Shown: piece by piece, positions 403 through 7,269 of the stretch
How the letters are laid out: every line of letters starts with the position of its first letter
Numbering within the stretch: the first letter of the stretch is position 1
Assembly: GCF_000949425.1 (NCBI RefSeq)
Contig: NZ_CP010976.1
Coordinates: 124,001-188,000 of the forward strand
From: Paenibacillus sp. IHBB 10380
GTDB taxonomy: Bacteria > Bacillota > Bacilli > Paenibacillales > Paenibacillaceae
DNA length: 64,000 nt
Direction: 5' to 3'
Made by a program: the position numbers and the translations under genes
Notes under the pieces: model-generated
What the model was told of the DNA's origin: nothing
What the model saw: only the letters and a program-made list of their open reading frames with translations
Databases searched by the model: none

Positions 403-1440
403 TTGAATGAGAAAATTAAATATCAAATCATCATGCAAGGAACCACCAGCAAAAATGTGACCAAAACCTGTAAGGAGTTTGGGATTTCCAGAACAATTTA
501 TTACCAGTGGTATAATGCATATAACAAACATGGCATGGAAGGACTTGCAGAGAAAGAAAGAAAGCCCGTAATGCCAAATAAGGTAGATAAACGAACAGAG
601 AATCTGATTTTAAAGTACGTTGCAAAGTTCCCTGAGGATGGGCCTAAGCGAATTTATTATGAATTGCAGGATGAGGGAGTAAAGGTCGGGGAGTCAGGTA
701 TTTATAATGTGCTAAGGAGAAACGGGCTAAGCAAGAGGGAGCAGCGAGAGAGTTACGCCAAAGAGATGAAAGAAAAGAAGGGGCAAAACAGAGAAATTCG
801 TAAAACTCATGGGGGTAAGGAGAGGCAGAAGCTCCTAGACTATAAGATGAAAAATCCGAAAAATGCCTACCCCGGCTATATGTGTCAACAGAGTATTCAT
901 TATATGGGGGTTTTCCCTAAAATCGGAAGGGTATATCAATATGTGATATATGATGTCTACTCCAGATTAGGACTAGTCAAGCTGTATAATCGTAAGTCCA
1001 CCATTCACTTCATCGACTTTATGAATTTTAAAATCATACCCTTGATGAAGACATTGCACTTTGAAATCGATAATCTTGTGACCAATAAAAGTCGGGAATT
1101 TACTACAAACTGGGATAGGGGAAACCATAAATACACTGAATTTTTACATAAAAATAATATTAATCAAGTGGCCTTTACAGCAAAAAACAAAGAGATATTT
1201 CAGCCTTTGGAAGCATTTGTGGCCGTGTTGACGAAGGAATTTTATCAGCCGGCTTGGGCAGATGATACCATAGATTCCTTTGAGTTACTAGAAAAGCGGT
1301 TACATGAGTTTTTAAGACACTACAACTTCAGCAGGGTAATTACAGACGGGCCTAATCAAGGGCAAATACCATCGGATGTCGTACTTGGCTATACGGGTCA
1401 ACAAGAGACCTTGCCGCTCTGGTTGTTTACGAGGAGATAA
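403..1440 (+). CDS. HTH/integrase-core (IS481-like) protein with lost DDE residues, probably domesticated
   Basis: The first ~55 residues form a helix-turn-helix of the IS3/IS481 transposase type, followed by an HTH-like linker and an integrase-core fold from about residue 150. The family motif Q-D-T-F-Y-V-G is QSIHYMG here, so the first catalytic Asp is Ser164; the L-T-D-R-G motif is VTNKS, so the second Asp is Asn228; only the Glu (PLEAF, Glu270) remains. The frame is full length with no frameshift, and no terminal inverted repeats were found around it. The TTG at 403 is preferred over TTG 382 because AAGGGG at 388-393 sits nine bases upstream. The stop is six bases before the FAD-enzyme gene, whose ribosome binding site lies inside this gene. 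Lost catalysis with an intact frame suggests a DNA-binding or regulatory role. This is inference; family motifs are compared from memory. Confidence 0.75.
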   Translation: MNEKIKYQIIMQGTTSKNVTKTCKEFGISRTIYYQWYNAYNKHGMEGLAEKERKPVMPNKVDKRTENLILKYVAKFPEDGPKRIYYELQDEGVKVGESGIYNVLRRNGLSKREQRESYAKEMKEKKGQNREIRKTHGGKERQKLLDYKMKNPKNAYPGYMCQQSIHYMGVFPKIGRVYQYVIYDVYSRLGLVKLYNRKSTIHFIDFMNFKIIPLMKTLHFEIDNLVTNKSREFTTNWDRGNHKYTEFLHKNNINQVAFTAKNKEIFQPLEAFVAVLTKEFYQPAWADDTIDSFELLEKRLHEFLRHYNFSRVITDGPNQGQIPSDVVLGYTGQQETLPLWLFTRR

Positions 1441-1446
1441 TGAAAG

Positions 1447-2706
1447 ATGGCAAATGTGAAGTGTGAAGAGAAGATTGGTATCATCGGTGCCGGAATTTCT
1501 GGTGTTACTACTGCCTATCAGTTAGCGAAAAAGGGATATACTAACATCACCATCCTAGAGAAAGATGATCGAGTAGGTGGAAAGTGTCATTCGATCGAGT
1601 ACAAAGGAAAAACATATGAAATGGGTACTCTTATCGGTCTACCATCCTATAAAAATACGATGAAACTCATGGAGGAATTTGACCTCATGGACGAGGGGCC
1701 TCTATTGGAACGAGGATTTTTCGATATTCATGGGAGGAAAACTTCGCAGATTCCAATGGATCAGATGCAGGTTTTTATTGAGGAATTCAAACGGCTGCCG
1801 GATATTTTGAGCCAATATGAGACTCTAAAAGAGCCGGGTTTTCTGCATTTACCAAAGGAATTGTGTCAGCCTTTTTCATCATGGTGCGAAGAAAATGAAT
1901 TGTCTGTCATTAATCAGGTATATATGCACTACTTTAGTACTTTTGGATTTGGTAGTATTCATGATGTGCCTGCCGCGTACGTTTTGAAATTTCTGAGTTA
2001 CGATAATCTAATGTCCTTTATCGAAATTACCCACATGATTACATGGCCCAAGGGAGTCAGTGAACTGATAAAACGCATGGCAGACCAAGTAGAGGATCTA
2101 CGACTGACTTGTGAAGTGCTCCATATGGAGCAAGAAGAAAACGGTAAGATAAGGGTGGAAACAAGCCAAGATATCCTATATTTTGATAAAGTTATTTATA
2201 CGGCTTCCTTGCACCATATCAGTCACATGGTTCATTTGTCTCCGACGGACAAGACATTATTCGAGAGGATTATCTATGAGCGATTTAGGGTATACGCCTA
2301 CAGGGTGGAAGGTATTCCAGAGCTTTCTGGATATATTCCCGACAACATGTATCCTGACCGAAAGGGACATATGATGGCTTGGTATTATCGGTGGGCAGAT
2401 CTGGGAGCTACAGATTTGGTTACCGTTTATGTGGTGGAGAATGAAGCGATGACAGATCAGCAGATGCGAGAGACGGTAGAGAAAAAACTTCGGGAGCTTG
2501 GAGGAGAGAACATTCGTCTGTACATGATGAAGACGTGGAAACAATTTCCCCATGTAGATTCTGTTGCCCTGCGTGAAGGTTTTTATGAGCAACTTGATCA
2601 GATGCAGGGAAGAAACAATATCTACTATGCTGGAGAAATTATGAATTTTCCCACCCTTGAGAATTGTATCGTTTATGCGAAATACTTGGTAGAACGATTT
2701 TTTTGA
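1447..2706 (+). CDS. FAD-dependent oxidoreductase resembling polyunsaturated fatty acid (linoleate) isomerase
   Basis: A 419-residue flavoprotein of the amine-oxidase superfamily. The N-terminus has the dinucleotide motif IGAGISG and the E-K-D-D-R-V-G-G-K stretch. The sequence resembles, through most of its length, the Cutibacterium acnes linoleic acid isomerase PAI as I remember it: VGGKCHS, YEMGTLIG.PSY, DVPAAYVLKFL, SGYIPDNM.P.R.GH, YYRWAD and a C-terminal YAGEIMNF. PAI moves a double bond in a free fatty acid using FAD without net oxidation. A related double-bond isomerase or a polyene/amine oxidase role are the options. It starts seven bases after the integrase-like gene using GAGGAG inside that gene, so the two are probably translationally coupled. 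A strong terminator follows at 2747. Confidence 0.75.
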   Translation: MANVKCEEKIGIIGAGISGVTTAYQLAKKGYTNITILEKDDRVGGKCHSIEYKGKTYEMGTLIGLPSYKNTMKLMEEFDLMDEGPLLERGFFDIHGRKTSQIPMDQMQVFIEEFKRLPDILSQYETLKEPGFLHLPKELCQPFSSWCEENELSVINQVYMHYFSTFGFGSIHDVPAAYVLKFLSYDNLMSFIEITHMITWPKGVSELIKRMADQVEDLRLTCEVLHMEQEENGKIRVETSQDILYFDKVIYTASLHHISHMVHLSPTDKTLFERIIYERFRVYAYRVEGIPELSGYIPDNMYPDRKGHMMAWYYRWADLGATDLVTVYVVENEAMTDQQMRETVEKKLRELGGENIRLYMMKTWKQFPHVDSVALREGFYEQLDQMQGRNNIYYAGEIMNFPTLENCIVYAKYLVERFF

Positions 2707-2746
2707 TAGATTTACAATAGTAAAAAATGATAAAAATTCAATGAAT

Positions 2747-2790
2747 AGATGTGTTGACAAAGAAGTTTTGTCGATACATCTGTTTTTTTT
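2747..2790 (+). terminator. Terminator after the integrase/FAD-enzyme unit
   Basis: A 15-16 bp imperfect stem (AGATGTGTTGACAAA at 2747 pairing with TTTTGTCGATACATCT at 2767-2782) with a four-to-five base loop, followed by eight T residues. It ends the two-gene unit. The rest of the gap up to 3089 is AT-rich with no visible gene. Confidence 0.85.
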
Positions 2791-3089
2791 ACTTTCAAGT
2801 CATATTTACAACTGGATATCTTAAAAGCACCATTAACTAAACCCTCGCATAACAAATTCACCTTCTTTGGTTTAGATCCTTTGATTTTATCCAATATATC
2901 GATGTTTTGTCGGCCTTCAAAAATGTCGGCAAATAAAAAAAGAGTGAATTCATATGTAAATGTAACTCGAAAGGAAACTTATAAATCATTGATAAATCAA
3001 CGTTCTTAACGATTTGATTGAGGAATAACCAATAGGTTATATTCAAGTTAAGTCAAATGATTTCAACATAAATTAAGGAGGGGTTAGTA

Positions 3090-4004
3090 ATGTTTTTATT
3101 TGAATCCATACCTTGGTACTCTGCTCTAATGTGGTTAGCAGTACTTGCTGGCTTAATGTTTGTAAATGAAATAGCTCGTAGGAGTAAATGGATTTCGATT
3201 TTTTTGTTTTTAGTATTACCGATTATTCTTACCTTGGCGGTTTGGCCAAATACAGCAGGTGAAGGCTCCAGCGTTGGAACGTGGTTTCACTGGGTAAAAG
3301 TTTATTCTGCATTGGCAGGATGTCTAGGTTTCTTAGCCATCAGATTTGTTAAAGGTTGGAGTACTAACAAGTATCTTTTGATGTTCCCAGCAATTATATT
3401 GGCAGTCAACATTCTGGAAGCTGTTATTCGTGATTTCCAAGTGTATAGTTTGAATGGTATGGTAGATGGCGTTATGATGGTTGGAGGACCTTGGAACATC
3501 ATGAATGGGGTCGCAGGTATTCTGAACATTATTACGATTTCTGGTTGGATGGGTATTATCATTAGTAAAGACAAGTATAAAGATATGTTGTGGCCTGACC
3601 AACTTTGGTTCTGGATTATTGCCTATGATATTTGGAACTTTGCCTATGTGTATAATGCTGTATCCGATCACGCCTTCTATGCAGGCGCAGCATTGTTAAT
3701 TTCATGTACAATTCCTGCATTTTTCTTCAGAAAAGGTGCTTGGTTACAACATCGTGCACAGACTTTGGCTATTTGGATGATGTTTACCATGTCTTTCCCA
3801 ATGTTTGTCGGGGAGTCCAAGTTTGCCGTGCAATCATCTCACAGCGAAACAGCCTTATGGGTTGTGGGTAGTTTATCCTTAGCTGCTAATATTGCTGTGT
3901 TTGTATATCACTTCTACAAAATATCTAAGCATAAACGTAATCCGCTTCAAGTGGAAGTATATACAGATTTAGCTGCTTACAAAGCCATTGCAGAAAACAA
4001 CTGA
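3090..4004 (+). CDS. DUF5692-like polytopic membrane protein
   Basis: A 304-residue protein made almost wholly of hydrophobic segments, with about eight or nine predicted membrane helices starting at residues 10-28, 33-50 and 68-85 and ending near 268-288. The start WYSALMWLAVLAGLMFVNEI followed by RRSKW matches what I remember of the DUF5692 family of Firmicutes, whose function is unknown. Conserved-looking polar positions inside membrane segments include N-I-M-N-G-V and W-N-F-A-Y-V-Y-N, which could line a pocket. The start is well supported by AAGGAGGGG eleven bases upstream. It is a separate transcript from the FAD enzyme, because a terminator lies between them, and it has its own terminator at 4091. 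Confidence 0.65.
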   Translation: MFLFESIPWYSALMWLAVLAGLMFVNEIARRSKWISIFLFLVLPIILTLAVWPNTAGEGSSVGTWFHWVKVYSALAGCLGFLAIRFVKGWSTNKYLLMFPAIILAVNILEAVIRDFQVYSLNGMVDGVMMVGGPWNIMNGVAGILNIITISGWMGIIISKDKYKDMLWPDQLWFWIIAYDIWNFAYVYNAVSDHAFYAGAALLISCTIPAFFFRKGAWLQHRAQTLAIWMMFTMSFPMFVGESKFAVQSSHSETALWVVGSLSLAANIAVFVYHFYKISKHKRNPLQVEVYTDLAAYKAIAENN

Positions 4005-6228: not shown

Positions 6229-7059
6229 ATGATAAATTTGGATAAATTAGCAGAGATATTTGCTAGTGGTACCTATGAAATAGAAGATGTCTACCGTTTA
6301 GTCATCCAGCCGAAAAGTATATTACGTGAATTTACGACCGTAAAGCATGGATTTCTTTTTATAATTCGTGGAGGAGCTAGAATATGTGTGAATGGAACGG
6401 TCTACGAGTTACATCCAGGATCAGTATTTCATGCGGCTCCAGGCATGCAACTGGACTCGCAAGTTATAGGACAATCAGAGTTCGAGTATTATTCACTTTT
6501 TTATAGATTGGATAAGTTAGGCGATGTAAATTGTACTCATGAATGCGACTCTCATTTTAAGCTGGAACCGGGAGCAAATCCGAGAGTGATAGAATTACTG
6601 ATCATGCTCCATCAGAATGCCCATACATCTGGAGGAATTGGAAAGCTTCGTATCAAGGAATTATTCTTAAGCATCATGCATCAAGTTCTGATTGGTTGCA
6701 GGTATCGAGAGAGTGGCAGTTCTCCAAGTAAAAGGGTGATAGAGGAAGCCATTGCATACATTAACGGGCATTATATGAATCCGATCACACTCGACGAGTT
6801 AGCTGAACTGCATGCAATGAGTACCAAACGCTTCTCATACTTCTTTCACAAATATACGGGGTTCCGTCCAATCGACTATGTTGTTAATTATCGTATGGAA
6901 AGAGCCAGTGATTTACTCAAAGCAGGCAATTTCCCCATCCGCGATATTGCTGTCAGTGTCGGTTATGCCAATCCGCTATATTTCAGCAGATTATTTAAAA
7001 AGAAATTCGGTGTGTCCCCCTCCGCATACACACATAAATTAGATAATCATATATATTGA
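6229..7059 (+). CDS. AraC-family transcriptional regulator
   Basis: A 276-residue regulator. Residues 20-90 form a cupin-like sensor (F.I.GGARICVNG...LHPGSVF), and residues 175-270 hold two helix-turn-helix motifs with the typical AraC ending: ITLDELAELHAMS, then IRDIAVSVGYANPLYFSRLFKKKFGVSPSAYT. The ATG at 6229 gives the natural cupin start; a TTG at 6202 would add nine residues. It lies 210 bases before a Fur box and the iron-uptake operon in the same orientation. AraC regulators next to FecB-type operons often sense the ferric chelate and activate import genes, as Btr does in Bacillus. That role is inferred from position. Confidence 0.85.
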   Translation: MINLDKLAEIFASGTYEIEDVYRLVIQPKSILREFTTVKHGFLFIIRGGARICVNGTVYELHPGSVFHAAPGMQLDSQVIGQSEFEYYSLFYRLDKLGDVNCTHECDSHFKLEPGANPRVIELLIMLHQNAHTSGGIGKLRIKELFLSIMHQVLIGCRYRESGSSPSKRVIEEAIAYINGHYMNPITLDELAELHAMSTKRFSYFFHKYTGFRPIDYVVNYRMERASDLLKAGNFPIRDIAVSVGYANPLYFSRLFKKKFGVSPSAYTHKLDNHIY

Positions 7060-7269
7060 GTTTCTGATTTATGAATTACGCCTGCAACTGCTGGTGATGA
7101 ACCTGAAGTGCAGTCTTCTTGCCTTTTGTCCAACTTTTTCCTTCCTGTTCCCGTCGCAGATCTGTCCTCCACATCAGCTAAATCATCAAGCCTGGATTAG
7201 ATAATTATGCATATAGGATTTGTGATTTGTGTATTTGCATTTGATTGAGTCCTTGCTAAACTATATTTT

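Follow-up and report, generated by a model that had tools for sequence, protein, structure and literature searches.

Described regulators of transposon origin

Regulators of transposon origin are already known in prokaryotes. TldR proteins, for example, derive from TnpB, and a eukaryotic lineage of another transposase superfamily is represented by ZBED6; as further background, the ends of bacterial IS481 elements carry TGT. In the available portions of their descriptions, TldR proteins are RNA-guided regulators (PMC13418256) and ZBED6 is a regulator from a domesticated DNA transposon (PMC2780926). The protein considered here, which we call INT, resembles TldR as a protein of transposon origin seemingly turned transcription regulator, but TldR has another nuclease fold and RNA guiding, whereas INT has a DDE/RNase-H fold, helix-turn-helix domains (HTHs) and presumably fixed DNA sites. 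ZBED6, unlike INT, shows no pairing with an enzyme gene. As far as the accessible text of the open-licence literature extends, including the review PMC8987985, we found no described DDE/RNase-H-fold transposase turned regulator with operators that resemble element ends.

With IS481-family transposases (model NF033577) INT shares an HTH part and an integrase core that can be aligned with those of intact members. Unlike these, it is without the catalytic triad and without flanking terminal repeats, occurs as a single copy in its own genome and has a fixed gene partner. From the sequence comparisons below we consider it quite probable that in INT an IS481-type transposase has been domesticated and today serves its own cassette as a sequence-specific transcription regulator.

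A second described system of relevance is the isr operon. IsrA, the putative isoprene reductase of Acetobacterium wieringae, has 901 amino acids with Cys180 and Cys254, and isrA homologues co-occur with HypA, HypB, TetR and DUF5692 (PMC10134865, available portion). Among the open-licence papers searched it is the only one to mention DUF5692. Its main text has 0 occurrences of "transposase", and in the available portion we found no mention of INT, of the flavoprotein gene behind it (FAD) or of the sites described below.

The INT-FAD-DUF5692 cassette

The window, that is, the whole stretch of 64,000 nucleotides of the Paenibacillus sp. IHBB 10380 genome that was analysed, carries INT, FAD and a DUF5692 gene in that order (Table 1).

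Table 1. Features of the cassette and of its control region, in window coordinates.
Feature	Position	Strand	Basis
INT, 345 aa, IS481-derived; two HTH domains and RNase-H/integrase-fold core without catalytic triad	403..1440	+	ORF, domains, model, alignment
GAGGAG, probable ribosome binding site of FAD, within INT 3' end	1431..1436	+	sequence
FAD, 419-aa flavoprotein, homologue of P. acnes PUFA isomerase (PDB 2b9w)	1447..2706	+	domains, PDB match, alignment
Intrinsic-terminator-like hairpin (2743-2785) and T-rich tail, 3' of FAD	2743..2795	+	20 pairs, 4 G-C
Site A, candidate INT operator, TGTAAATATGACTTGAAAGTAAA at 2788-2810	2785..2812	-	matrix scan, genome match
Site B, candidate INT operator, inverted relative to A, TGTAAATGTAACTCGAAAGGAAA at 2955-2977	2953..2980	+	matrix scan, genome match
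Palindrome TTGATAAATCAA, conserved DUF5692 leader	2989..3000	.	alignment of loci
DUF5692 membrane protein, gene most likely controlled	3090..4004	+	PF18948, model, co-occurrence

An earlier reading of this DNA from the letters alone (the sequence-only reading) had described INT as intact and full length, and its coordinates and start are correct: the frame is unbroken from a TTG at 403 to the stop at 1438-1440. Both an HTH part and an integrase fold are present according to the domain scan and the predicted fold. Pfam finds HTH_23/28/32 and a weak rve domain (E 0.073), and the AlphaFold model (pLDDT 83, pTM 0.58) has IstA/integrase as its fold matches. The NCBI IS481 model NF033577 matches residues 7-312 with 146.4 bits, below its curated cut-off of 224 bits; since 0 of 59 family genomes hold a match above that value, the cut-off does not discriminate here. 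The INT family is scattered through Bacillota, with Clostridium and Alkaliphilus among the named genomes that hold relatives, and it is easily overlooked because databases often call its members "transposase" or simply "helix-turn-helix protein".

The sequence-only reading was also right about the six-base gap between the INT stop and the FAD ATG, with a probable ribosome binding site inside INT, and from strand and spacing we infer that the two genes are co-transcribed. Its description of FAD as fatty-acid-isomerase-like holds as well: the top PDB match is 2b9w (E 7.9e-70; next molecule E 1.7e-7), a record labelled "putative aminooxidase" that we take to be the P. acnes PUFA isomerase, and the alignment spans FAD residues 5-419 of 419. 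Arg89 and Phe191 of FAD, invariant in 15 rows with 23-84% identity to the window protein, match Arg88 and Phe193 of 2b9w (hand-counted in the alignment), which presumably form the gate for the fatty acid. Unlike that enzyme, FAD is linked to INT, and its isomerase activity is putative.

In all 10 named-genome loci returned for INT (two of them tandem copies on one contig, one a gapped fragment) FAD follows it and DUF5692 comes next. A survey of 100 genomes of the genus found INT in 18 (fragmented in G439 and frameshifted in G488), FAD in the same 18, and DUF5692 in these 18 and in two others as remnants with 47 and 55 residues matched. The cassette lies in several different neighbourhoods within the genus. 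In G219, one of the two genus genomes with remnants, a piece of DUF5692 (L082, 8896-9063; residues 249-304) marks a place where the DNA on either side is collinear with L006 but the cassette is missing, which indicates that it was lost there. Among 398 genomes of the phylum, FAD gave 9 matches in 7 genomes, every one directly behind INT, and INT gave 16 matches in 13 genomes at E<=1e-20, 9 of them in cassettes; the other seven are IS481-like proteins from six genomes with no FAD match, and FAD was absent from all five of these loci that were inspected. Of the 398 genomes, 11 have DUF5692: it accompanies INT-FAD in seven, stands alone in three and is a remnant in one. Pairwise distances over 22 loci are highly correlated for INT-FAD (r 0.984), FAD-DUF5692 (0.960) and INT-DUF5692 (0.919), from which it follows that the three genes co-diverge, and the high value for INT-FAD is not specific to that pair.

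In Paenibacillus sp. HOT.CON.154 the whole cassette occurs twice (L004/L005; G470:C48), about 8.6 kb apart and with equal scores for all three genes, and one more DUF5692 gene lies on a separate contig (G470:C46).

Paired inverted sites

The only large gap of the cassette lies past the terminator-like hairpin and ahead of DUF5692, and it holds sites A and B; the tail of the hairpin reaches into site A. In an alignment of the region before DUF5692 from 16 Paenibacillaceae loci, the pattern TGTAAAC..AACT.GAAAG is accompanied by an inverted copy upstream. Each site is about 24 bp long, and in the window the TGT tips point inward with 144 bases between them (63-144 bp across the Paenibacillaceae). 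When scored with a matrix of the 32 sites of these loci from which the locus's own group was left out, the two sites are the top two matches in 16 of 16 loci. Those of the window score 23.6 and 21.4 bits, and the next place in the 64 kb scores 8.0. In the 5.8-Mb genome only sites A and B match the consensus with at most 2 mismatches; with 3 mismatches there are five more places, compared with three for a reversed control. Among the five best matches per Paenibacillaceae locus none lies before INT itself. L090 and L093, loci of other genera in the Paenibacillaceae, each have one strong site, which seems to follow FAD and lies close to where the available DNA stops.

The 16 loci that revealed the motif also served to train it, and its sole independent test is seven INT loci from five genomes outside the class of the window genome (G033, G056, G095, G136 and G234), which include close relatives (L065/L066 and L059/L060). 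In all seven the top two matrix matches form an inward pair, with tip spacings of 60, 62, 61, 60, 61, 61 and 64 bp, located in the interval from FAD to the next operon or in that separating divergent operons. With 300 column-permuted matrices the pair occurred in 0.037 of the 7 loci on average and in at most 1. The weaker site reaches only 9-13 bits in L058, L059, L060 and L067, a range in which a control, L081, also falls (12.2 bits, with no pair). An inward pair was found in 0 of 10 control loci, which comprise four loci, drawn from three genomes, that have DUF5692 but lack INT (in one of them DUF5692 is short), one cassette relic and five IS481-like loci. Thus, across the loci tested, with these few controls included, conserved and specific sites at the control region track the presence of INT.

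Many of the 16 aligned loci share the palindrome beyond site B and, from there as far as the start of DUF5692, more conserved bases (TTTGAT). The region has no Rfam match; the palindrome is perhaps the site of a second regulator or an RNA leader.

Loci outside the class and the isr neighbourhood

Outside the class, L058-L061 carry INT, FAD, an Fe-S flavoprotein, DUF5692 and HypA in this order on a single strand, with HypB ahead of the flavoprotein in L061 and past HypA in L058. In L065-L067, which form a divergent clade, INT-FAD and flavoprotein-HypA-DUF5692 point away from each other. These assignments come from a family scan for L061 and from blastp clusters for the other loci. The flavoproteins have 895-924 residues and two CxC motifs 74 residues apart, the spacing of Cys180 and Cys254 in IsrA, and that of L061 has the same Pfam domains; the comparison is one of motif and domains. 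These loci therefore resemble the isr operon, as far as the accessible text of PMC10134865 describes it, in carrying an IsrA-like flavoprotein, HypA, sometimes HypB, and DUF5692. In the same available text TetR is a neighbour of isrA homologues at a frequency of 0.21 of 988 (PMC10134865), and L078, a locus without INT, has a TetR-like gene (named from its first residues) divergent from DUF5692, which together suggest that the gene neighbourhood has a slot for a regulator. Through the cassette a fatty-acid-isomerase homologue is thus linked with DUF5692 and with the genes around a putative isoprene reductase, and with its two defined sites the cassette offers a testable handle on an uncharacterised pathway.

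No IsrA-like gene lies beside INT-FAD-DUF5692 in the window. A search of the window genome found none of full length, and the best match to the L061 protein has 37% identity over residues 358-605 only. Contigs of equal size among INT relatives and flavoproteins, compared by eye, suggest more such linkage; one example is INT protein P0057 and flavoprotein P0343 (both 562966).

Regulator or partner of FAD

The sequence-only reading had proposed that a transposase became a DNA-binding regulator or a partner of the metabolic gene. Regulation is supported by the loss of the triad, the linkage, dN/dS and the site pair. The same proposal needs amending in two respects, for the triad loss is not local and the target is likely DUF5692 rather than mainly FAD. 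Outside the class the likely target would be the operon of the IsrA-like protein, HypA and DUF5692. Counting against regulation by INT, G488 (L077) keeps FAD, DUF5692 and both sites together with a frameshifted INT, and the sites could be bound by another protein instead.

INT could alternatively be mainly a protein partner of FAD, as chaperone, scaffold or subunit, its DNA binding a relic and the sites those of another regulator. Cassette-type INT and FAD were not found apart in the 100 genus and 398 phylum genomes, and in every cassette locus inspected FAD lies directly behind INT with a gap of -22 to 11 bases (longest-ORF starts), as would be expected of partners. The dead core, with dN/dS of 0.05-0.13, is, moreover, about as constrained as the HTH part, with 0.04-0.21 (12 of 13 orthologue pairs defined); dS is saturated in several pairs. 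We nevertheless regard this possibility as unlikely, because the HTH regions are the best conserved part of INT in 41 aligned rows (HTH1 0.66 and HTH2 0.74, against 0.56 for the core, 0.33 for the linker and 0.60 for the C-terminus) and because the site pair tracks INT.

Loss of the catalytic triad

Ser164 and Asn228 of INT pair with the catalytic Asp, and Glu270 with the Glu, of three DDE-intact IS481-type proteins (L062, L063, L064). The sequence-only reading had named this triad, with only Glu270 kept, and this is true of the window but not of the family: in an alignment of the window INT and 40 of 120 listed relatives, Asp stands at 164 in 0 of 41 rows and at 228 in 1, and Glu at 270 in 5. 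Triad degeneration is family-wide, Glu270 included, and is not local to the window genome. The Asp losses recur in homologues adjoining FAD in other genomes, as that reading had wanted checked. Homologues with an intact triad beside unrelated genes, which it held would speak against domestication, do exist in L062-L064, but these form a separate group in the tree. Neither the terminal repeats whose absence it reported nor any flanking repeats of a recent insertion were detected in 400-base flanks of INT, and the same inverted-repeat scan gave only an 11-16 base match around the INT-FAD unit.

That INT is an active or conditionally active recombinase, with shifted acidic residues and with sites A and B as its ends, is highly improbable. 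An integrase fold is predicted, and many members outside Paenibacillus have Asp two residues past 164, Glu at 228 and Asp at 270. The sites also look like element ends because of their TGT tips; IS481EU ends read TGT...ACA in H. meleagridis and TNT..AYA in T. vaginalis (PMC10045372, available portion). Yet across the 41 rows none of the three positions keeps a conserved acid, and, unlike element ends, the sites lie both on one side of INT with their tips facing each other and so do not bracket the gene. A different IS481-type protein is present in four copies of equal score in the window genome, where INT is single; an equal-scoring INT duplicate was seen only as the tandem pair of G470, and the two INTs in each of G056 and G095 are different and diverged.

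In G355, another IS481-like protein (L083, 8758-9804) has D, N and E at the triad positions and lies in an unrelated neighbourhood; it is possibly a second inactivated transposase. The same genome has a further match on contig C42.

Selection on INT

Over 13 orthologue pairs, in several of which dS is saturated, dN/dS is 0.07-0.14 for INT, 0.05-0.14 for FAD and 0-0.06 for DUF5692. INT is under purifying selection with a ratio of about 0.1, in answer to another check suggested earlier, and the hallmarks of a domesticated transposase, namely catalytic loss, purifying selection and a fixed genomic partner, are all found in it. The least probable alternative, in which INT would be a pseudo-transposase in decay, carried along by a useful FAD gene, finds some support in L077, where INT is frameshifted and the rest of the cassette is intact, but it is contradicted by this ratio, by a full-length INT in the other cassette loci inspected bar the gapped contig L011, and by linkage that spans the Paenibacillaceae and genomes of other classes. 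The L077 frameshift lies at about 6989-7156, near the HTH1/HTH2 boundary.

A proposed mode of action

As a regulator of its cassette, INT would no longer cut DNA. Each site has two halves, TGTAAAC and AAAG.AAA, to which its two HTHs would bind, and such bipartite sites fit a protein with two HTHs. INT subunits would bring the two sites together in the way that a transposase does with its ends, and this pairing would loop or cover the DUF5692 promoter; outside the class the paired sites would control the promoter of the IsrA-like/HypA/DUF5692 operon and, in the divergent clade, that of INT-FAD too. Since the pairing of inverted sites is the job of a transposase core, such a role would explain the constraint on the dead core. 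Repression would be the likeliest sign, relieved by a change of state in the substrate or in the co-translated FAD protein, although this is a guess. More tentatively, and with less confidence than we place in regulation itself, INT and FAD may form one sensor-regulator, in which the dead transposase would pair terminal-repeat-like operators across the promoter in the manner of a transpososome and the fatty-acid-binding flavoprotein would report substrate or redox state, switching on DUF5692 and, in other Bacillota, nickel/iron-sulfur hydrogenation of conjugated double bonds.

The DUF5692 protein itself matches PF18948 with E 1.4e-141, and its structure model (pLDDT 88) consists mainly of long helices. 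Conservation is striking, with 74-79% identity to proteins from Listeria, Clostridium and Spirochaetae, and charged or polar residues such as E27, R30, K70, N107, N136, D165 and D170 are invariant in 32 rows.
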